From: a bacterium
Lineage (GTDB): Bacteria; Verrucomicrobiota; Verrucomicrobiia; Limisphaerales; UBA11358
Assembly (NCBI GenBank): GCA_021817945.1
Contig: JAKAFL010000011.1
Span: 1-64,000, forward strand
DNA length: 64,000 bases
Direction of reading: 5' to 3'
Shown: positions 23,021 through 33,781 of the stretch, piece after piece
Numbering within the stretch: the stretch's first letter is position 1
Layout: each line of letters opens with the position of its first letter
Notes under the pieces: generated by a model
Told to the model about the DNA's origin: nothing
Databases searched by the model: none
What the model saw: the letters and a program-made list of their open reading frames with translations, nothing else
Made by a program: the position numbers and the translations under genes

Positions 23021-25408
23021 TCAATGCCATTGGTAGGTCAATGATGCGAAAATACCATTGGCTGAGTAATTGTTGACGCTTGCAACTCCAGGCTCCTCGT
23101 ATTGGGAAAATTCAAAATGAATGGCGCCTCCCAGGTTTTCGGTGAACTGACGGCTTAAGCCGATGATGAAATCCTGCCGGGTGTAATCGAGTCCGGCTGG
23201 AACTCCTGCAAAGGTGTTGTTTTGGGCATAGTTGGCATGGGAGAAATTGCAGGCGAGTTGCAGTCTGGTTTTTGGATTGACAGAATAGTTTGCGGATGCA
23301 ATGAGGGTGTAGATTTCCCCCTGGTAAGGCACGATGGAGGGATCATTATTATCCGCAGTGCTGGTCCTGGACCGGCTATAGGTCATGGAGCCGGATAGAA
23401 ACAACTTGCGCATGGGCGTGATTGTGGCGCTGACCCCAAAGGTTTGAAGCTCGCAATTGCCATCAGCTATGGTGCCGCCTTGCGAAACCAGGGTTTGCAC
23501 GGTGGAATCATAGGCGGGGTCTGTCCGTGTTTGGTATTGGGTATCGGTCAATTGGTAGGTCAACGTGGTTTTAAGCCATGAGGCAGGGTGGAGGACCAGT
23601 TTGGTTTCAAATTGGGCGCTCGAAATTAATCGGTTCAGGATGAAGGAGGGGTAACCGTTGGTGGGGCTGCCCATTCCGTCAAAGACTCCATTGAGCTGGT
23701 TGTAGGCCGTGTCGCTGAAATGCTCACTGCCTTGTGTCACCAGGTCGGCCCAGTTCCAGGGAGAAGTGTCGAAGCCAGCCTTCAAATCATAGCACAAATT
23801 GTTCGCATCCGTGTTCCGCTCAATGTCACTACCCGCCACGCCAGTGTTCTGGGCCTGGTAAATTCCGTAGGCATCCTCGTTGATCCTTGATTCCGCAAAC
23901 AGGGAGGTAAAGGGGATGCGCGTGTAGCGCACCCCGGCATTTTGCATGGCTTTCACTTCCTCCAGGCTGGAGTTGGCGGGCGTGTTGATCCCCAGGTCCA
24001 GGTCCGGCACGCTTTCGCCAAATCCTTCCTCGCGCGTCCATTCCTCCTGGGCGTCCAGCACGAGGGCCAATCCATTGAACGGGGTGAGGAGGTTTGCAAC
24101 ACTGAAAATTTGGGATTCCCGACCCAGGCTGATTTTTGAGCTTTGCAATGAATTGTTGAAACTGAAGGCGGGGATGGTGTTGGCCTGGTTGAAATAATCT
24201 CCGCCACTGAGCCGCGAATAATAATAACCGGCATCCAACAACCACCAATCCCGGATATGCCTGCTCACCGTGAGAGTATCAACGCCCTGCACCTGCTGGT
24301 AATGATCCGAAGTGCTGATGAACTGGCCAGGAATGACGCCGCCTGTGAGAATGCCTGATTCCATGCCATTGTTGGCATGCGAAAAGAAATCCAGACGGCT
24401 GTAGTTTTCCAGGTTCCAATCGTCAAGGGTTTTGGAAATATCCAGTTTAATGGAGTGGGTTTGTTCGTTGAGGGATTGTGAGGAGGCGAGGATGTTTTTG
24501 CCGTTGTCAAATCCCCAATCCAAGGTGGATTCCATTCCCTTTCTGTACTGGTATTCATAACCCAGCGTCATCAGAGGCCACCCGGGATGATCCAGCCCAA
24601 GGTCAATCCAGGCATCTCCATTGTCCACATACAAATTGGGGTTGGGATTGGCTGGCGGAGCCGCCACCAGCGGATCAAACCCTCCGTCCTGCGCATAATA
24701 TTTTCGCCATTGATCAAACCCGGCATGGATGAATCCACGCCCGGTCTTTTCCAGGGATAGTTTAAAACTCAGGTCTTGTTCAGGCAGGAGCACATGCCCA
24801 TCCAAGGTCATATTTTCATCAGGACTCAATTGCTCCTTGGCTGAAAACGAATCCATCCCCGCGGAGAATCCGTTTTGGACACCCTGCAATTCCCTGAATT
24901 TGCCTGAATTTCCCGAGACCAGGTAGTCCTGAAAGCTGGGAGAAACGGTCCCGGTGAAGGATTGCGCCTGGGGAGTGGACCCCCAGGCAAGGCCTTCATC
25001 AATCCATGCGCGAAGGAACTGAATCTGGGTTGGCGTGAGGCGGGAGCCGGCATCTTCCGGGGGCATGACCATGTCCCGCACCTTGCCGGTGACGTAGGCG
25101 ATCAACATGCTTTGATCGCTGTGGCCAACCACAAGGTCATTGGTGTTGAGATCGCCACCCTCCAGGGCGCCCTCACGGTAGTCCAGCCGGAAATCGCTTT
25201 GCGGTTTTTCAGCTCCATGGCATCGGAAACAGGAAGCTTGCAAGATGGGCAATATGTCCCGGACAAAATCCACATTGGAAAGGGTTGTGGAACCGGATTG
25301 GATTGGCAGGGAATCCGCAGCAGGCAGGGGCATGGGATACAGCGAGGCCATCAGCAATGCCAGGAGGAGGGAGCTTTTGAACCTGGTGAAAAAGCCATTC
25401 ATCAGCAA
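23021..25408 (-). CDS. Outer-membrane beta-barrel fused to an N-terminal c-type cytochrome domain (MtrB-like)
   Basis: The 795-residue product has a signal peptide (about 1-31, ending PLPAAD). A planctomycete-type cytochrome domain (about 45-150) follows, with a haem motif SCFRCHG, the conserved FRLDYREGALEGG and a distal MPP Met loop. The remaining 600 residues are a large beta-barrel with many alternating aromatic strands ending SLTYQWH. The barrel resembles MtrB/PioB porins, which hold a multihaem cytochrome inside the outer membrane. Fusion of a monohaem domain to the porin is unusual. It is last in a minus-strand operon, 9 bp after the multihaem lipoprotein gene. The MtrB relation is judged from length, strand pattern and context. 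Confidence 0.78.
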   Translation of the reverse strand: MLMNGFFTRFKSSLLLALLMASLYPMPLPAADSLPIQSGSTTLSNVDFVRDILPILQASCFRCHGAEKPQSDFRLDYREGALEGGDLNTNDLVVGHSDQSMLIAYVTGKVRDMVMPPEDAGSRLTPTQIQFLRAWIDEGLAWGSTPQAQSFTGTVSPSFQDYLVSGNSGKFRELQGVQNGFSAGMDSFSAKEQLSPDENMTLDGHVLLPEQDLSFKLSLEKTGRGFIHAGFDQWRKYYAQDGGFDPLVAAPPANPNPNLYVDNGDAWIDLGLDHPGWPLMTLGYEYQYRKGMESTLDWGFDNGKNILASSQSLNEQTHSIKLDISKTLDDWNLENYSRLDFFSHANNGMESGILTGGVIPGQFISTSDHYQQVQGVDTLTVSRHIRDWWLLDAGYYYSRLSGGDYFNQANTIPAFSFNNSLQSSKISLGRESQIFSVANLLTPFNGLALVLDAQEEWTREEGFGESVPDLDLGINTPANSSLEEVKAMQNAGVRYTRIPFTSLFAESRINEDAYGIYQAQNTGVAGSDIERNTDANNLCYDLKAGFDTSPWNWADLVTQGSEHFSDTAYNQLNGVFDGMGSPTNGYPSFILNRLISSAQFETKLVLHPASWLKTTLTYQLTDTQYQTRTDPAYDSTVQTLVSQGGTIADGNCELQTFGVSATITPMRKLFLSGSMTYSRSRTSTADNNDPSIVPYQGEIYTLIASANYSVNPKTRLQLACNFSHANYAQNNTFAGVPAGLDYTRQDFIIGLSRQFTENLGGAIHFEFSQYEEPGVASVNNYSANGIFASLTYQWH

Positions 25409-25417
25409 GCCGGGTTT

Positions 25418-26203
25418 TCAATAACGCAGCCGGATGTCAATGTTGGAGCCATGCACTGCCGTGTGGCAGCCAGAGGTCCAGCACGTGCCTATTTGCAGGA
25501 ATGCCGTGTGGTCAATGGTTCCGATATAGATGTGGCCGGCGGGCACGGAGGGTCCCTGAACCTGGGCATGGCACCTCAGGCACAGGTTCGGGTCATCTTC
25601 GACCAGCAGCTTTTCATTGATGGATCCGTGCGGGTTATGGCAGACGGTGCAGCCTTCGTGCATCGCCTCGTGTTCAAAAATGAAGGGTCGCGTCTGGTCT
25701 TGATGGCACGCGGCACAGCTCTCATTCTGCCGGGCCATGGCAAGACCCCCGGCGGCCTTGAAAATGTCCTCACCGTGCGGGTCGTGGCATTGCACGCAAT
25801 TCATGAAACCCTCCGGCACGGGATGATGCTGGGGCAAACTGAATTCGCCCTGGACATCCAGGTGGCATTCCATGCAGGAATCCGGTTTTTTACCAGGGTT
25901 TACAATCAAACCTGGCTGGCCGCCGGTCCGGATATGTTCACTGCCTGGTCCGTGGCAGGATTCGCATCCAGTTTGCCCCGGCATGGCTGAACGAGCCGAA
26001 TAAAGGCGCGCATGAGCGCTTGCAGGAAACCTGAGGACAATGTCCCGGTGGCACACTGCACAGGCCTGGTTTCCAACATAATGTGAACCGGCAATTTCCG
26101 GCGCCTGGACAACCCCATAGGGCGTGGTTGTGCAGGAGACGATGAAAACCCACTGAAAAACCACGAAACCACCCAGCAAAAACCGTGTGATTTTGCGTTT
26201 CAA
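25418..26203 (-). CDS. Multihaem c-type cytochrome lipoprotein (MtrA/DmsE-like)
   Basis: The 261-residue product has a lipoprotein signal ending FIVSC, with Cys24 lipidated. Seven CXXCH motifs lie at residues 48, 80, 110, 136, 163, 185 and 208 (CAVCH, CESCH, CMECH, CVQCH, CAACH, CTVCH, CLRCH). One CX4CH motif lies at 241-247 (CWTSGCH). That is eight likely haems, fewer than the ten of MtrA, but with the same regular spacing of a linear haem wire. It would accept electrons in the periplasm and pass them into the barrel of the next gene. Its stop lies 9 bp before the barrel start, and it overlaps the SCO-like gene by 4 bp. Confidence 0.92.
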   Translation of the reverse strand: MKRKITRFLLGGFVVFQWVFIVSCTTTPYGVVQAPEIAGSHYVGNQACAVCHRDIVLRFPASAHARLYSARSAMPGQTGCESCHGPGSEHIRTGGQPGLIVNPGKKPDSCMECHLDVQGEFSLPQHHPVPEGFMNCVQCHDPHGEDIFKAAGGLAMARQNESCAACHQDQTRPFIFEHEAMHEGCTVCHNPHGSINEKLLVEDDPNLCLRCHAQVQGPSVPAGHIYIGTIDHTAFLQIGTCWTSGCHTAVHGSNIDIRLRY

Positions 26204-27159
26204 TTTCGCATGCCAGCGATTTTGCCTGGAGTGCTGCCAGGCAGGCCCGGTGACGCGGCCTGAATGATTTGCCTCACAATTTGGTCAGACAAGTTCCCGC
26301 CGGTGGGAAAAATCATTTGCAAACGGCCGGAGGCATCAATGATAAGCGTGCGAAAATTATGAACGATCACCCCATCCTGGTTTTTCATTTTCATGCCACA
26401 ACGCTCCGCCAATTCGCTGATGTCGGATGTGGTCCCGGTCAAAAAGGACCAGTGTGCCGGGTCATAACCATAGGCTTGGGCATAGGAATGCAGCACGGAG
26501 GGTGAATCGAATGACGGGTTGAACGTGACGGATAGGAAATGCCAGTTGGTGGGGGCGGATGACATGTGGGTAAGGATGGCCGACGCAGTTTGAAAGTTTT
26601 TGGACAAACGAGGGCAATAATCCGGCAAGGGGCAACGGGTGTAAAAAAAAGTGATGGCCAGGGCCTGGCCATGAAAATCGGCCAGGGTTACAGGCTGGTC
26701 GAGTTCATTGGTGAAGCGGCAATGAAGAAGGGCATATCGGGGATCATCAGCAGGCCCTGTTGGAGGGGTGTCCGTCCCGTTGTTATTGGATGCCGCCGCA
26801 ATCGGGGCCTGCCCCACCACGACGAGGTGGGCGACCCAACTTGAATCCGCGCTCACATGCAGCTCAAAATGGACAATGCTGCCGGGATGAAGACCTGATA
26901 ATTCATTCGCATCCCTGACTTTGAAGGGCATGGTCATGCTGTCCATGTAGTTTGAGATGGCAGCGTGATGAATGACCACGACCCTGTTTTGCGGCTGCAC
27001 ATCCTCAATGACGCCATGTGCCTGAAAAATTTGATCCGTTGGAGTGGAAAAGGCCTGGGGCGCCAAGAACCGGGTGATTGACAGCAAAAACCATCCAGCC
27101 AGGCAAGCCGGCACCAACCTTTGAATGGCACGCCTGATGTGTCTGCGAAAGGATCTCAT
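26200..27159 (-). CDS. CusF-like plus SCO-family copper protein
   Basis: The product (319 residues from the ATG at 27159) has an N-terminal membrane anchor or signal (ACLAGWFLLSITRFLA). A CusF-type copper-binding domain follows (HHAAISNYMDSMTMPF with His and Met ligands), then an SCO/SenC thioredoxin-fold domain (about 150-300). The SCO copper site is FFYTRCPLPDYCPRL, a CX5C instead of the usual CX3C, with the distal His in IVHNFRTLIID. SCO proteins deliver copper to oxidases or act as thiol-disulfide reductases. Here it may load copper into the cupredoxin encoded just upstream. It overlaps the cytochrome gene start by 4 bp. Confidence 0.87.
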   Translation of the reverse strand: MRSFRRHIRRAIQRLVPACLAGWFLLSITRFLAPQAFSTPTDQIFQAHGVIEDVQPQNRVVVIHHAAISNYMDSMTMPFKVRDANELSGLHPGSIVHFELHVSADSSWVAHLVVVGQAPIAAASNNNGTDTPPTGPADDPRYALLHCRFTNELDQPVTLADFHGQALAITFFYTRCPLPDYCPRLSKNFQTASAILTHMSSAPTNWHFLSVTFNPSFDSPSVLHSYAQAYGYDPAHWSFLTGTTSDISELAERCGMKMKNQDGVIVHNFRTLIIDASGRLQMIFPTGGNLSDQIVRQIIQAASPGLPGSTPGKIAGMRN

Positions 27160-27172
27160 GGAAGGCGCAGAA

Positions 27173-28090
27173 TCAGGGGTTGGGTTGCAGCGCCACCCGA
27201 TAGAATCCATTCCGCGAAGGCGCGCGGGAATCGGAAAAGGACTCGGGGTTTTGGGATGCGATATTGGTGGCCAGGGGCGTCCAAACGATCAGGTTAGTTG
27301 AAAACTGAACCACATATGAAAGGCCCACCGAGGAGGCGTAGCTGAATTGGAAAATACCCGATGATAAAAGGGAAGGGGAGTGAATCACAATGGGAGCGGC
27401 ATTTACAACGGAGATATTGATTGAGTTGGTGGCGGACAATCCGTCGTCGGCGCTGGCGATGGCTGATAATGAATAGGTCCCTGCGGCAAGATTGGTCACA
27501 AATGCCGCATAAGGCGGGGAGACGCAATTGGTGAGGATCACCGAGCCGAGCTGAAATTGGACATTGGTGATGGATCCGCTGCTGATGGATGCCGCAGCCC
27601 CCATCGTGAAGCTGGCCGGCGAACTGAAGACAGTAGAAGACATTGGATTGGTTATGGTTACAGATGGAACCACAGGCGCAGCCGCCACATGGATCGTTCC
27701 AACCATGCCAAAGGAGACGTGCACGGTGCATTCATAGGGGAACGATCCGGCGCTGGAAAAAATATTAGTGAATGAAAATGGATAGGAACGAGTATTGGAA
27801 CTGTTTTGGTTGCTGGAAGTGCCTGGACCGCCTCCCGGGCTGGGAAACAACCAGGCGTAGGGCGTGGTGGTGCTCACCACATTATGATTTGCAGCGCCAC
27901 TGGCCCAGTTCCATATCACCTCGTCACCCGCCTGGATATCAAGGGTGGAGGGGTTAAAGGCGTAGTTTACAACCGATACAGTGGCCACCGCGCCATGGAC
28001 GGTCCAAGCCGCCAAAATTCCGAGAAGGACTGTGCCTTTTAGAGGCAGGGTTTTGGATACATTGAAAATTTGAGGTTTAATAGTTTTCAT
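27173..28090 (-). CDS. Exported cupredoxin (blue copper) protein with Ig-like and C-terminal RFYR-type modules
   Basis: The 305-residue product has a signal peptide (1 to about 33). A plastocyanin-like domain (about 37-135) carries the type-1 copper ligands His69 (NHNVV), Cys121, His124 and Met129 (ECTVHVSFGM). An Ig-like domain (about 143-230) and the W..L..FYRV C-terminal module follow. It is a soluble or surface electron carrier. It is the first gene of the redox operon, so it and the ECF sigma gene are divergently transcribed from a shared 142-bp region. Confidence 0.9.
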   Translation of the reverse strand: MKTIKPQIFNVSKTLPLKGTVLLGILAAWTVHGAVATVSVVNYAFNPSTLDIQAGDEVIWNWASGAANHNVVSTTTPYAWLFPSPGGGPGTSSNQNSSNTRSYPFSFTNIFSSAGSFPYECTVHVSFGMVGTIHVAAAPVVPSVTITNPMSSTVFSSPASFTMGAAASISSGSITNVQFQLGSVILTNCVSPPYAAFVTNLAAGTYSLSAIASADDGLSATNSINISVVNAAPIVIHSPSLLSSGIFQFSYASSVGLSYVVQFSTNLIVWTPLATNIASQNPESFSDSRAPSRNGFYRVALQPNP

Positions 28091-28187: not shown

Positions 28188-28216
28188 GGGAACCTTTTGG
28201 ACCCGGGTGAGTCATA
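28188..28216 (+). promoter_or_regulatory. ECF-type promoter for the sigma/anti-sigma genes
   Basis: GGGAACC (28188-28194), a 16-nt spacer and GTCATA (28211-28216) match the classical ECF consensus GGAAC-N17-GTC. The implied start point is about 10 nt before the sigma ATG, so the leader is very short. Autoregulation is typical of ECF sigma factors. Confidence 0.65.
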
Positions 28217-28232
28217 CTCAGTGAGCCTGATC

Positions 28233-28745
28233 ATGGTTGAAAAACCGGATTTCGAAAAATTGGTGGCTTGCCACTACCATGAGCTTTATCAGTTTGCCTA
28301 TAGCCTGACCCGGAGTGAGTCGGAGTCGTGCGACCTTACCCAGGAGACCTTTTGCATCTGGGCGGCAAAAGGTCATCAGCTTCGCGATGGAAGTAAGGTC
28401 AAATCATGGCTTTTCACAACCCTCCACCGCGAATTCCTGGGTGGAAGGCGCAGGCAGGTTCGATTTCCTCATGTGGAATTGGAGGATGCGGATGCGGAAT
28501 TGCCCATGGTCACCCCGGAGTTGGTGGACCGTTTGGATGCGCGGATGGTGGTTGAGGCTCTGGCCGGGCTGGATGAGATTTTTCGGGCGCCAGTTGCCTT
28601 GTTTTATTTGCAGGATTATTCTTACATGGAGATTGCGGAGATTTTGAGTGTGCCTGTTGGAACGATTAAATCACGGCTTGCCCGCGGAATAATCCGTTTG
28701 AACCGAATTTTGACATCCACGAGGAAAAAGGGGGGCGAATCATGA
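28233..28745 (+). CDS. ECF-family RNA polymerase sigma factor
   Basis: The 170-residue product has the sigma-2 region (about 5-75: HELYQFAYSLTRSESES, DLTQETFCIWAA) and the sigma-4 helix-turn-helix (about 105-160: DYSYMEIAEILSVPVGTIKS). Linker and length are as in ECF sigma factors. The ATG at 28233 is preferred over an upstream in-frame Met because the promoter lies between them. It overlaps the next gene by 4 bp (ATGA). Its divergent neighbour is the copper/cytochrome operon, which it may activate. Confidence 0.93.
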   Translation: MVEKPDFEKLVACHYHELYQFAYSLTRSESESCDLTQETFCIWAAKGHQLRDGSKVKSWLFTTLHREFLGGRRRQVRFPHVELEDADAELPMVTPELVDRLDARMVVEALAGLDEIFRAPVALFYLQDYSYMEIAEILSVPVGTIKSRLARGIIRLNRILTSTRKKGGES

Positions 28746-29575
28746 CCCTCGAAGAAGCCAGGGTGATTTTATTGCGATACCGGCCCGGGCAGGGAAATGA
28801 GGCTGATCCGGAAGTGGCTGAGGCGCTGGACATGGCGGCCAGGGATCCGCAACTGGCCGAGTGGCTGGCGATTCATTGCCTCCAGCAGGAGGATTTGCGG
28901 CTTAAATTGCGCCAAATTGCCCCGCCGGAAGGCTTGCTTGAACAAATCATTTCCGAAAAAAAGGCCTTTGATCGTTCGGTGGGCCAAAAGCGAAGGTGGC
29001 TTCTGGCAACCGCAGCCATTCTTGTATTTCTGGGGTTGTTCCTGTTTGCAAACCATCGCTCCAATCACCTGGCAACCTCAGAGGATGGCTTGGATTTATT
29101 TCAAAAGCAAATGGCGGGGTTTGCATTGCGGGGTTACGTCATGGATATTCAGACCAACGACCCGGCGCCAATCCGGGATTTTTTGCAGCAACGCCAGTCG
29201 CCATCCGGCTATGCCCTATCTCCGACATTGACCCGGCTTCTGGCGGGATGCTCCGTGGAAAGCTGGCATTCCTCCAAAGTGACCATGCTTTGTTTCCGGA
29301 CGGGCAATCCTCTGCCTCCCGGGGTGCAGAGTGATTTATGGCTGTTTATAGCCGATGCAAAGGTCGTTAAAGGCAGCCCGGGCAATTCCATTCCACAAAT
29401 ATCCCGAATCAACCGCCTTACAACAGCCACCTGGGTGAAGGACGGGCGGCTTTATTTCATGGGAACCACCGGTGATGAAACGGTTTTGCGAAGGTGCCTG
29501 GGGTGGATTGTGGTGAGTGTGCGGACGGGAGAGGTTCAGCCGCCAGGAATGCTCATGTGGCTGAGCAGCCATTGA
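28742..29575 (+). CDS. Membrane protein, probable anti-sigma factor
   Basis: The 277-residue product has a cytoplasmic N-terminus of about 80 residues with charged helices (EEARVILLRYRPGQG ...), one transmembrane helix (about 82-102: WLLATAAILVFLGLFLF) and a periplasmic C-terminal domain of about 170 residues. That topology and the 4-bp overlap with an ECF sigma gene make it the likely anti-sigma factor, although no zinc-binding HXXXCXXC motif is seen. The periplasmic part may sense redox or copper state; this is inference. Its last 40 bp overlap the 3' end of a convergent prepilin-like gene. Confidence 0.75.
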   Translation: MTLEEARVILLRYRPGQGNEADPEVAEALDMAARDPQLAEWLAIHCLQQEDLRLKLRQIAPPEGLLEQIISEKKAFDRSVGQKRRWLLATAAILVFLGLFLFANHRSNHLATSEDGLDLFQKQMAGFALRGYVMDIQTNDPAPIRDFLQQRQSPSGYALSPTLTRLLAGCSVESWHSSKVTMLCFRTGNPLPPGVQSDLWLFIADAKVVKGSPGNSIPQISRINRLTTATWVKDGRLYFMGTTGDETVLRRCLGWIVVSVRTGEVQPPGMLMWLSSH

Positions 29576-30873: not shown

Positions 30874-31521
30874 TCAACGAAAATGTATGATGCCACGTTG
30901 AATCGCCACGGAAACGGCTTCTGCCCGGTCGGCTACGCACAATTTTGCCAAAATATTTTTTAAATGCCATTTGACCGTGTTTTCGGTGATGTGCTGGACG
31001 TCGGCTATTTGTTTGTTGGCCAGGCCTTTAGCCACTTCATGGAGAATGAGCAACTCGCGGGGCGTGAGTTCCTCAAACATGCGGCGGGATTCAAGACGCT
31101 TGGCCACCCCCTCAGGAATCCAACGCTGCCCTGAAGCTACGGCCCGAATTGCAGGCAATAATTCCTCCTCCGTCGAGTCTTTAAGAACATAACCTGAGGC
31201 CCCGGCTTCAATGGCTCGGTGAATGTCCTCATCGCCATCCAGGGCGCTCAACATTAAAATTCGGGCCTCGCCATTCATTTGCCTCATTTCTTGGGCGGCT
31301 TTGATTCCGCTTTTGACCGGCATGTGCACGTCCAGCAAGGTCAGGTCCGGGTTCCACTTTTTAAACATTGCAGTGGCCTGGCTGCCGTCGGTCGCCTCCG
31401 CAACCACTTTCATGTCCGGCTCCAGGTTGACCATGGCTGTCAAGCCAATGCGCACCACATAGTGGTCATCCGCTATGAGGATGCGGATCGGGGTCGCTGA
31501 TGATTTGATGATCTGATTCAC
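30874..31521 (-). CDS. NarL/FixJ-type response regulator
   Basis: The 215-residue product has an N-terminal receiver domain with the acidic pair in LIADDHYVV, the phosphoryl-acceptor Asp in LTLLDVHMP and the Lys in YVLKDST. A LuxR-type HTH follows (LTPRELLILHEVAKGLANKQ ... ENTVKWHLKNIL). It overlaps the 3' end of the sensor kinase gene by 56 bp and is certainly its partner. Its targets may be the glycan genes that follow on the plus strand, but that is inference. Confidence 0.95.
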   Translation of the reverse strand: MNQIIKSSATPIRILIADDHYVVRIGLTAMVNLEPDMKVVAEATDGSQATAMFKKWNPDLTLLDVHMPVKSGIKAAQEMRQMNGEARILMLSALDGDEDIHRAIEAGASGYVLKDSTEEELLPAIRAVASGQRWIPEGVAKRLESRRMFEELTPRELLILHEVAKGLANKQIADVQHITENTVKWHLKNILAKLCVADRAEAVSVAIQRGIIHFR

Positions 31522-33781
31522 AGTTGGGGTTGATCAGTTTGGTTGGGGTTATGGGCAGTTCGACGCGGACCATGGTTCCTTTGCCGTGCTGGCTGATAAT
31601 TTCAATTTGCCCGTCAAACCGCTTGGCACGCTCCCTCATTCCAAGGATGCCGAAATGACCGTCATTGGGTCCCAGGCAATTTTGAGGTGTGAAGCCGATA
31701 CCATCGTCGAATATCTCCAAGGTGACATTCCTGCTGCCAAAATGGAGGCTGATTTTAATGGATTTCGCCCCGGCATGTTTCACCGAGTTGGTGACGGCCT
31801 CCTGGGCAATCCGCAGCAGGGTGTCCTCAATGATGTCCGGCAGAGGTTGGGAATTTCCCTGGGTCCCCATTTCGACGATTATCCCGGCGTGGTCCGCAAT
31901 TTCCTTTGCCCCCATGGTAAGCGCCTTGCAAAGGTCAAATTGCTCCAATTCCCTGTTGCGTAGATCCCAAATGGACCGGCGCAAATCCACACGGCTTCTT
32001 CGCACCATGTTTCGGATCAGTCCCAAATGATGGGTTGCCGTTTGGGGACTCTGCTCAAATAGCTTTTTGATGGTGTTGAGTTGCAGGGTGATGCCGGTCA
32101 TGGTTTGCTCAATTGTGTCATGAAGTTCCCTTGCCAGGCGGGTGCGTTCCGCCAACGTGGCCCGGAATCGGACTTCGGCTTCCTTCCTGGAGGTAACCTC
32201 AAATTTTAATTGTTCAGTTCGTTCCTTGACTCTCCACTCCAATGTGTCATGCGCCCTTTGCAATTCTGCCCGGTCCAGTTCTCTCTCGTGGATCAGGCTT
32301 TTCAAGGCGGAATTTCTTTTGGTGACCATGATGGTCCAACTCATTCCAACAAGGATCACGACAAAGGCAATGACCAGGGAGGCAAATAGGCGCCGGGGAG
32401 TGAGCCAACTGGGTTTTTTTAGCACTTTTACACTGAAAGTATTTGGAACAAGGATTTGGACGGATTGAATACGCCCGTCAGAAGAGCTTTGCAAAAAGCA
32501 AATCCCACTCACCTGAACCAGACTGCCAATGGGTATTAATTCGAGAGGCTGATCGGGGGCTGGCGTCTGAGCAACGGCGGTGAACACAAGGTTGCTGGAT
32601 TGAAGTTCCAGAATGGTTTTAACCTCCGGACTGCCATCAGGTGAGGTGCTCCTTTCTTCAAGGTGGTCCAGAAGGATGCCCGAGACGGTGACAAGGTCCG
32701 AATGATGCAGTCCCTGGAGGAATTCATCAATGGGTGGCTGGTCGGGAATAATGTTCACACGGGGTCCCTCCGTTTTTTGAAAAACCGAGTCGTTCAGGAT
32801 TGGCAAAAAATTGTCAAACTCTGGAAAGCCGACAGCCTCAACCATGTCGCCCTTGGACAATTTCAAAAGCTGGGTGCTTTTCACTTGCAACCCACCCGTG
32901 CTATCCCGGATGAAAAGGTCCTCGCCATTTCTTTGGAAGGTCAGGACCCCCTTGATATGAACCCTGTCCGCAACCGAACGGCCTGCCCGATATTGGGCGA
33001 TTTTGTTGATGGGCGTCAAAGGTTCCTGAAAGGGATTTATGGCAGCCAGTTTAACGATTGAAATATCGCTCTGGACCGGCGAATAAACATCCACCGACAC
33101 CAAGTGCCTCAAGGTGGCATTAAAAGTTGTCGCCGGCGTGCCTGTCACGGTTACGAGGGCGCCCACCATTTTGCCGGGGGTGATGCTTGACAGCATGGGA
33201 GTGTAAACTGTTACCCGGCATCCCCCGGAGGCCACCTGGAAATGGAGCAAATTCCCCTTTTGCTCAGCCTGTCGCACAATGCCAGAAAATTGGATGCGCT
33301 GTCCATCCTCGGCTCCAGACATCAAGTCATCCATGGCCACGATTTTTGGAATTGGCAGAGAAGCTTTGCCGATTTTAACCCATGTTGGCCTGGTGATAGT
33401 TGGAGCGTATCCGCCCGGGAAACTAACCCCGGAGAGCCGCAGGACATCACCGGGGGCGGGTTGTCGGCTGCTGATGTTTTCCACAAAGACGCCGCCGCTG
33501 GAATCCTGAATGAAAAACCGGCCGCCCCAATCGGGTTCAGCCGCAGTGACGATGCCTTGAATATCCACTTTGATTCCAAGTGAGGCCTGTTCGCCAGACA
33601 AGGCAAGGACTGCGGAGGCATTGGTCAAAACACTGGCAGCAGCCTGTGGCGGGCTCCCCCACGCGGCCCCTGACAGGCCCATGGCAAAACAGGTCAATAG
33701 CTTCAGAAAGGTATTCACGGGTGGCGGAAAAACCTTGGCATGAATGGGGCTGAATTCAAGAAAGAAAAGCCTGATGAGCAC
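31466..33781 (-). CDS. Sensor histidine kinase (HisKA_3) with exported OB-fold-like repeats
   Basis: The frame of up to 771 residues starts at 33781, but a signal peptide begins only near residue 22 (TFLKLLTCFAMGLSGAAWG), so a GTG start at 33718 is likely. The exported part (about 50-460) has three or four similar beta-rich units, for example RFFIQDSSGGVFVEN and DLFIRDSTGGLQVKS followed by GD..R/EV.G strands. A transmembrane helix (about 468-488) and short coiled coil lead to a dimerisation/phosphoacceptor box LARELHDTIEQT (His about 554) and a GHKL ATPase domain (DNGIGF-like DDGIGFTPQN, GHFGILGMRERA). The domain type is NarX-like. Confidence 0.9.
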   Translation of the reverse strand: MLIRLFFLEFSPIHAKVFPPPVNTFLKLLTCFAMGLSGAAWGSPPQAAASVLTNASAVLALSGEQASLGIKVDIQGIVTAAEPDWGGRFFIQDSSGGVFVENISSRQPAPGDVLRLSGVSFPGGYAPTITRPTWVKIGKASLPIPKIVAMDDLMSGAEDGQRIQFSGIVRQAEQKGNLLHFQVASGGCRVTVYTPMLSSITPGKMVGALVTVTGTPATTFNATLRHLVSVDVYSPVQSDISIVKLAAINPFQEPLTPINKIAQYRAGRSVADRVHIKGVLTFQRNGEDLFIRDSTGGLQVKSTQLLKLSKGDMVEAVGFPEFDNFLPILNDSVFQKTEGPRVNIIPDQPPIDEFLQGLHHSDLVTVSGILLDHLEERSTSPDGSPEVKTILELQSSNLVFTAVAQTPAPDQPLELIPIGSLVQVSGICFLQSSSDGRIQSVQILVPNTFSVKVLKKPSWLTPRRLFASLVIAFVVILVGMSWTIMVTKRNSALKSLIHERELDRAELQRAHDTLEWRVKERTEQLKFEVTSRKEAEVRFRATLAERTRLARELHDTIEQTMTGITLQLNTIKKLFEQSPQTATHHLGLIRNMVRRSRVDLRRSIWDLRNRELEQFDLCKALTMGAKEIADHAGIIVEMGTQGNSQPLPDIIEDTLLRIAQEAVTNSVKHAGAKSIKISLHFGSRNVTLEIFDDGIGFTPQNCLGPNDGHFGILGMRERAKRFDGQIEIISQHGKGTMVRVELPITPTKLINPNCESDHQIISDPDPHPHSG

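Follow-up and report, generated by a model that had tools for sequence, protein, structure and literature searches.

The window analysed here, 64,000 nucleotides in all, is part of contig C65 of a draft genome (3.76 Mb, 94.7% complete) from an uncultured verrucomicrobial bacterium. Its minus strand carries four co-directional open reading frames (ORFs), in the order cupredoxin, CusF-SCO protein, multihaem cytochrome, and outer-membrane barrel (Table 1). The barrel bears a cytochrome domain on its own chain. We present evidence that barrel and multihaem protein probably form a porin-cytochrome pair, a version of the conduits that carry electrons across the bacterial outer membrane. A sequence-only reading of the window had named the same four ORFs and suggested this function; all four are present.

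Table 1. Features of the locus, in window coordinates.
Feature	Position	Strand	Basis and remarks
Fused cytochrome-porin (signal peptide, PSCyt1 monohaem domain, 26-strand outer-membrane barrel)	23021..25408	-	795 aa from TTG; Pfam and predicted structure
PSCyt1 haem domain	25052..25231	-	CFRCH at residues 60-64; candidate distal Met 115 in MPP
Barrel region	23024..24958	-	26 predicted beta strands; best PDB match MtrB 6r2q_B
Cytochrome with 8 haem sites (7 CXXCH + 1 CX4CH), MtrA/DmsE-related	25418..26203	-	Motifs, profile and PDB matches; lipobox-like IVSC at N-terminus
CusF domain joined to SCO1/SenC domain	26200..27210	-	Pfam
Plastocyanin-type cupredoxin with Big_7 domain and further C-terminal part	27173..28090	-	Pfam
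Extracytoplasmic function (ECF) sigma factor, divergent, possible regulator of the locus	28197..28745	+	Family match and neighbourhood counts
Gene after the ECF sigma gene, perhaps an anti-sigma factor	28742..29575	+	No Pfam match; one weak NCBIfam anti-sigma match, E 0.057

The barrel protein contains a PSCyt1 domain (PF07635) at residues 60-119, as had been read from its N-terminus (Pfam, 54.3 bits against a cut-off of 22, E 2.2e-14). The domain has its CXXCH, the one such motif in the gene. The large barrel that was expected downstream of it is borne out by structure prediction. Modelled alone, it has 26 strands in the fold of MtrB, and MtrB itself (6r2q_B) is its best match in the PDB; TonB-dependent transporters, including OprC, rank well below. 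Neither of two sequence searches leads to MtrB: Pfam lists no match to the MtrB/PioB family (PF11854) for the window barrel at E values up to 10, and phmmer with the barrel protein gave no usable route, so the resemblance is one of predicted fold alone.

The multihaem protein has seven CXXCH motifs and one CX4CH (CWTSGCH), exactly as first read, and matches Paired_CXXCH_1 above the Pfam curated cut-off. It is related to the DmsE family TIGR03508 (156.6 bits, E 7.9e-46) without being a member, since it falls below the NCBI curated cut-off of 192.2; the ten haem sites of that family are not found, only the seven plus one. Against the GSU2203 family NF041028 it scores 179.7 bits (E 8e-53), below the curated cut-off of 325. 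Within the PDB it aligns best with chain A of 6r2q (E 1.8e-28), labelled cystathionine beta-synthase in the file, which we take to be MtrA because the entry is that of the Mtr complex. The strongest stretch of this alignment places haem sites 3-8 of the window protein on MtrA sites 5-10, and a weaker stretch places sites 1-4 on sites 1-4. Judged by this site-by-site offset, we take the product to be an MtrA-like wire minus one haem pair, probably 3-4. Its N-terminus reads FIVSC, a lipobox-like sequence (IVSC); a lipid-anchored wire would differ from MtrA.

Related loci are widespread in the order. A search with the barrel region alone gives matches, of either barrel type, in 184 of the 320 order genomes searched and in 22 of 387 taken from the phylum. 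Cytochrome matches occur in 234 of the 320, other multihaem proteins included. With the full-length barrel protein as query, 79 of the 387 phylum genomes match. Most of these matches lie in other proteins and involve nothing but the haem domain; nearly every genome has at most two matching places. The comparison covers 77 loci in which barrel and cytochrome occur together. Besides the window these are 60 loci from the order search (hand-picked, 40 better and 20 weaker matches) and 16 from the phylum search, one of them from the window's own genome. The derived sets were A1 (124 rows, without the cytochrome row L128), A2 (49 of the 77 barrels), and A3 (63 of the 77).

We find PSCyt1 on the barrel chain at 47 of the 77 loci and not at the other 30, a ratio that is not a frequency because the 60 order loci were picked by hand. 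CXXCH is absent from every barrel ORF listed among the 30 unfused loci. The 46 fused relatives belong to 26 genera in 21 families. No fused form turned up outside the order in the genomes read, which were 20 of the 22 that matched in the phylum search (G059, with a 203-residue partial frame, and G160 were left out); the window's own locus is the sole fused one among them. At least four genomes hold both types (G000, G581, G586, and G511). The first reading had allowed that homologues might show an ordinary porin whose haem domain is degraded; one may add a domain present by chance. Unfused homologues are indeed common, as the 30 loci show, but CXXCH and MPP are kept in 47 of 47 fused sequences, and the domain persists across the families just counted. 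Within loci defined as fused by a match to that domain, the kept motifs speak against degradation, and we regard this explanation as highly improbable.

In the cytochrome tree all 47 fused loci fall on one side of a single branch (support 88/90). The unfused locus L047, from another class, stands beside them, the 48 rows together having support of 100/100. The barrel tree agrees (SH-like approximate likelihood-ratio test, 96), although it is a quick tree with a long-branch warning for L047. The fused barrel is a form common to a whole clade and not a strain peculiarity. Near the sister locus (L047:12793-16006, genome G126) are an SCO gene and two further ORFs, one for an FGE-sulfatase domain protein, the other for a multicopper domain protein that ends in a cytochrome c and is presumably NirK-like.

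An MtrA-related gene lies directly upstream of the barrel gene in the 77 counted loci and in 4 that were dropped, and the seven-plus-one haem pattern recurs in 75 of the 77 sequences, window included, within the stretch compared. The exceptions are L128, whose compared stretch is short, and L112, with eight CXXCH. Judged by a strict pattern, a lipobox-like motif stands ahead of haem 1 in 25 of the 46 fused relatives and in 23 of the 30 unfused ones, the window standing outside this count. The four dropped loci are L055, L061, and L062, which did not enter the counts, and L063, which entered but gave no tblastn barrel match; all four are unfused, with an adjacent seven-plus-one cytochrome and other multihaem ORFs near. 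The four-gene order itself, which the first reading proposed to look for in other Verrucomicrobiota, recurs in close relatives: L067 and L068 keep cupredoxin, SCO, cytochrome, and fused barrel in sequence (we take them to be the same contigs as L100 and L102 and count them once). In L066, from a Limisphaerales bacterium, the cytochrome matches at 96% and the contig ends before the barrel. On a gammaproteobacterial contig (L069:4485-11597), an ORF with 21 CXXCH precedes one of 1841 aa with 55 CXXCH, which encodes a giant multihaem protein.

Fused and unfused loci differ sharply in their neighbours. None of the 47 fused loci has a second multihaem ORF (at least four CXXCH) within 4 kb, against 25 of the 30 unfused loci, or 29 of 34 when the dropped loci are added. 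Those typed beside unfused loci are NapC-like (L064), fused to cytochrome b561 (L065), and MtrC-like (L046). Small monohaem ORFs show the same direction (8 of 47 fused, 20 of 30 unfused). The copper proteins show the reverse: tblastn finds a cupredoxin within 7 kb at 22 of the 47 fused loci and at none of the 30 unfused ones, and a profile combined with the copper-ligand pattern finds one within 4 kb of 19 of 47 and 0 of 30. SCO genes lie near 15 of 47 fused loci and 1 of 30 unfused, and ECF sigma homologues near 21 of 47 and 0 of 30. Short contigs may hide neighbours in all these counts, and the flanks fetched differ somewhat between the two sets. A small monohaem gene beside unfused barrels was considered as the source of the fused domain (the Rosetta-stone case) and rejected as far as tested: three such proteins are of PF00034/CBB3 type, not PSCyt1, and a one-haem ORF beside L047 has a below-cut-off touch on PF00034.

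The host genome illustrates both types. It holds two PSCyt1 matches, the window barrel and a 147-residue frame, and a second conduit, unfused, on contig C8 (L046:7916-12762), composed of a 9-haem protein with MtrC-like domains, a seven-plus-one cytochrome, and a barrel without haem domain. This second conduit lies about 8 kb from a COX1 match; the genome has three COX1-family matches, some of which may be other members of the superfamily.

Both copper proteins at the window locus have the identities first given to them, with Pfam matches over curated cut-offs. The cupredoxin matches PF00127 (Copper-bind, 33 bits against 21.2) and Big_7, and shows a His and C-X2-H-X4-M, which we take to be the type-1 copper ligand pattern. 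No other PF00127 match was found in the genome, and by one narrow regular expression the C-terminal module of this protein occurs, among window proteins, nowhere else. The second protein matches SCO1/SenC (PF02630, 55.5 bits against 22.8) and CusF_Ec, and copper delivery is its likely role. The usual SCO cysteine pair is CX3C; here it is CX5C (CPLPDYC), kept in L066 and L067 and, as CPLPEFC, in L068.

With three copper-protein domains encoded in two upstream genes, the locus might instead handle copper, the barrel serving as an uptake or efflux channel for copper or another nutrient and the haem domain as sensor or plug. TonB-dependent transporters, among them the copper transporter OprC, do appear among the lower-ranking fold matches. 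MtrB stands well above them, however, and while an MtrA-like gene accompanies every fused barrel, a cupredoxin is near 22 and an SCO gene near 15 of the 47. We consider this explanation unlikely.

The first reading placed porin-cytochrome conduits in Proteobacteria. That was incomplete, since the general porin and multihaem system has been published for Verrucomicrobia as well. He et al. (2017; PMC5615132) describe verrucomicrobial gene clusters of a porin with at least 20 predicted transmembrane motifs and an 8-haem periplasmic cytochrome, propose that they export electrons to humic substances, and state that Geobacter- and Shewanella-homologous systems are absent. Our unfused loci, from the same phylum, fit their account, and the window locus likewise has an adjacent porin of at least 20 segments and a cytochrome with eight haem sites, compared by description. 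In the text consulted no haem domain on the porin is mentioned; the main text contains neither "cupredoxin" nor "copper" (0 occurrences each), and its PSCyt section names combinations with PSD domains. Here the cytochrome is MtrA-related in sequence and the barrel MtrB-like in predicted fold.

With MtrAB, MtoAB, and PioAB (6r2q) the locus shares the 26-strand barrel fold, an MtrA-related multihaem wire, and adjacent genes, and like MtoAB and PioAB it has no surface multihaem gene close by. It differs in having 8 haem sites, not 10, a barrel without detectable sequence kinship, an extra fused monohaem domain, and cupredoxin and CusF-SCO neighbours. A cluster of Sideroxydans lithotrophicus ES-1 (Slit_1812-1818), more abundant on magnetite, combines cupredoxins, SCO1/SenC, and a predicted cytochrome (PMC12016527); the text available names no porin or MtrA-like gene there, and the likeness of the cupredoxins is by description only.

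An N-terminal monohaem domain joined to an outer-membrane barrel is also the plan of Cyc2/Cyt572 (PMC8406198, PMC10654088), and Cyc2 was called unique for its cytochrome-porin fusion in 2021 (PMC8406198). By this analogy the barrel would be a Cyc2-like iron oxidase, its monohaem the working centre and the multihaem protein an accessory; Cyc2 homologues, together with putative porin-cytochrome genes, are reported from some verrucomicrobial metagenome-assembled genomes (PMC6344600). Cyc2 has about 16-17 strands and its own motif, AXPXFAR[Q/K][T/Y] upstream of CXXCH, and works without a multihaem partner as far as these sources describe it. In contrast, the haem domain here is PSCyt1, the model has 26 strands and not 16, an MtrA-like gene adjoins the barrel in the loci read, and FAR[QK][TY] and A.P.FAR occur in 0 of 47 fused barrels (FAR with other residues in 7 of 47). 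Membership of the Cyc2 family is rejected on strand number and motif, and a Cyc2-like way of working seems very unlikely, more so than a copper porin.

Motifs, homology, predicted fold, gene association, and clade are computed results. From the predicted fold and the homology to MtrAB, we infer that the locus is probably a trans-outer-membrane electron conduit working like MtrAB. The first interpretation is upheld in part, by the MtrB-fold barrel, the adjacent MtrA-related partner, the intact haem domain, and the gene order kept in close relatives. None of the outcomes that it had named as refuting was seen, the evidence on contact between barrel and multihaem protein being indirect. Its scope is corrected, the form being clade-wide and the general system published. 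The 26-strand barrel would span the outer membrane and sheath the 8-haem wire. PSCyt1 would relay electrons, because the barrel N-terminus would be periplasmic, as argued for Cyc2 (PMC8406198): it would set a fixed haem, probably Met-ligated and of high potential, at the periplasmic mouth, through which soluble carriers and the wire would exchange electrons. The likely soluble partner would be the cupredoxin, supplied with copper by the CusF-SCO protein; co-location, in 22 of 47 fused loci, is what links the copper proteins to the conduit.

Several results weigh against this reading. A profile of 49 barrels searched against the PDB gave no usable match to MtrB, and 1 of the 49 (set A2) touches PF11854, at 0.004. 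"Fused" means a tblastn match to the haem domain, and a badly decayed domain would count as unfused. The neighbour counts represent two lineages, not independent events, because the contrast between fused and unfused loci rests on one tree branch. No cupredoxin was found near 25 of the 47 fused loci, some on short contigs, and the copper-ligand pattern is kept in only 19 of 26 cupredoxin-profile ORFs. In a model of cytochrome and barrel joined as a single chain, the cytochrome part has a predicted local distance difference test score of 31-82 per block of ten, haems being absent from the model, and 9ga1_A and 3njt, which we take to be barrels without a plug domain, align from residues 35-36.

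That model was built as one chain because one stop, read as Trp, separates the two frames. Its predicted template modelling score is 0.76, and in most barrel blocks the local score exceeds 90. Many TonB-dependent transporters align to it from inside the cytochrome part, onto their plug-domain numbering: FhuA (1by5) pairs model residues 32-993 with chain residues 40-710, and OprC (6fok) pairs 9-995 with 14-667. To the barrel alone they align beyond the plug, starting no earlier than model residue 122 (1by5, 191-738 on 158-688; 6fok, 164-721 on 138-667); the plug boundaries are those generally given for these transporters. This is a weak sign, no proof, that the cytochrome lies in the barrel lumen, since the ranges give end points only and 9ga1_A and 3njt start likewise.

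Direction is less clear than conduction. Uptake of electrons from outside, exchanged at high potential with aerobic respiration, seems slightly more likely than export, by little more than an even chance. It is favoured because fused loci have no quinol-linked cytochromes and pair a probably Met-ligated haem with a type-1 copper protein; such haems and copper proteins are usually of high potential. The same conduit could also run outward, in respiration of humic matter or metal oxides, with the cupredoxin as a secreted extracellular carrier replacing the surface multihaem cytochrome and PSCyt1 fed by periplasmic cytochromes. Export to humic substances is what He et al. propose for the verrucomicrobial system (PMC5615132), cupredoxins near the SCO gene of Sideroxydans ES-1 are predicted to be extracellular (PMC12016527), and long ORFs (681, 698, and 869 aa) account for three of the cupredoxin matches beside fused loci. 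Fused loci, however, lack the neighbouring NapC-like and cytochrome b561-fused genes seen beside two typed unfused loci, and the carriers found are of types that usually work at high potential. We give the outward direction appreciable weight, though clearly short of even.

The boundaries of the genes leave some choice. A divergent ECF sigma gene and the gene that follows it lie in front of the four-gene locus. The likelier barrel start is an ATG at 25402, two codons past the listed TTG, which itself lies nine bases from the multihaem stop in the same frame. Of the overlaps first noted, that of the multihaem start with the SCO stop (TTGA) holds; that of CusF-SCO with the cupredoxin gene disappears if translation begins at a possible ATG at 27159. 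Within a few kb (window 30874-33781) lie genes for a LuxR-type response regulator and for a histidine kinase whose N-terminal region is long.

We found no description of a fused 26-strand or PSCyt1 porin in the literature searched, mostly open main texts without figures, supplements, or preprints, which is not proof of absence; the parts seen of PMC5615132, PMC5566968, PMC10734462, PMC12016527, PMC12285243, PMC13274419, PMC6344600, PMC8406198, and PMC10654088 describe none. The fused loci might form a separate class of conduit, in which two known designs meet: the multihaem wire of MtrAB type, housed in a 26-strand barrel, and the monohaem of Cyc2 type, borne by the barrel chain itself. Multihaem partners would be replaced at both ends, inside by the fused PSCyt1 haem and by the cupredoxin instead of quinol-linked or surface multihaem cytochromes, for high-potential electron uptake in a large uncultured verrucomicrobial order. 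We advance this tentatively, and with rather more doubt than belief.

The locus seems to be a common yet undescribed version of the bacterial conduits for electron exchange with minerals or humic matter. Fusions of the Cyc2 kind have been proposed as forerunners of the 26-strand MtoAB type (PMC10654088, 2023). The present locus, where a 26-strand barrel has a fused monohaem and is accompanied by an MtrA-like wire, offers a natural test of that proposal. The neighbouring cupredoxin, SCO, and ECF sigma genes make the question of the electron partner testable in expression hosts. With barrels of either type in 184 of 320 genomes, this verrucomicrobial order is marked as a candidate for extracellular electron exchange.

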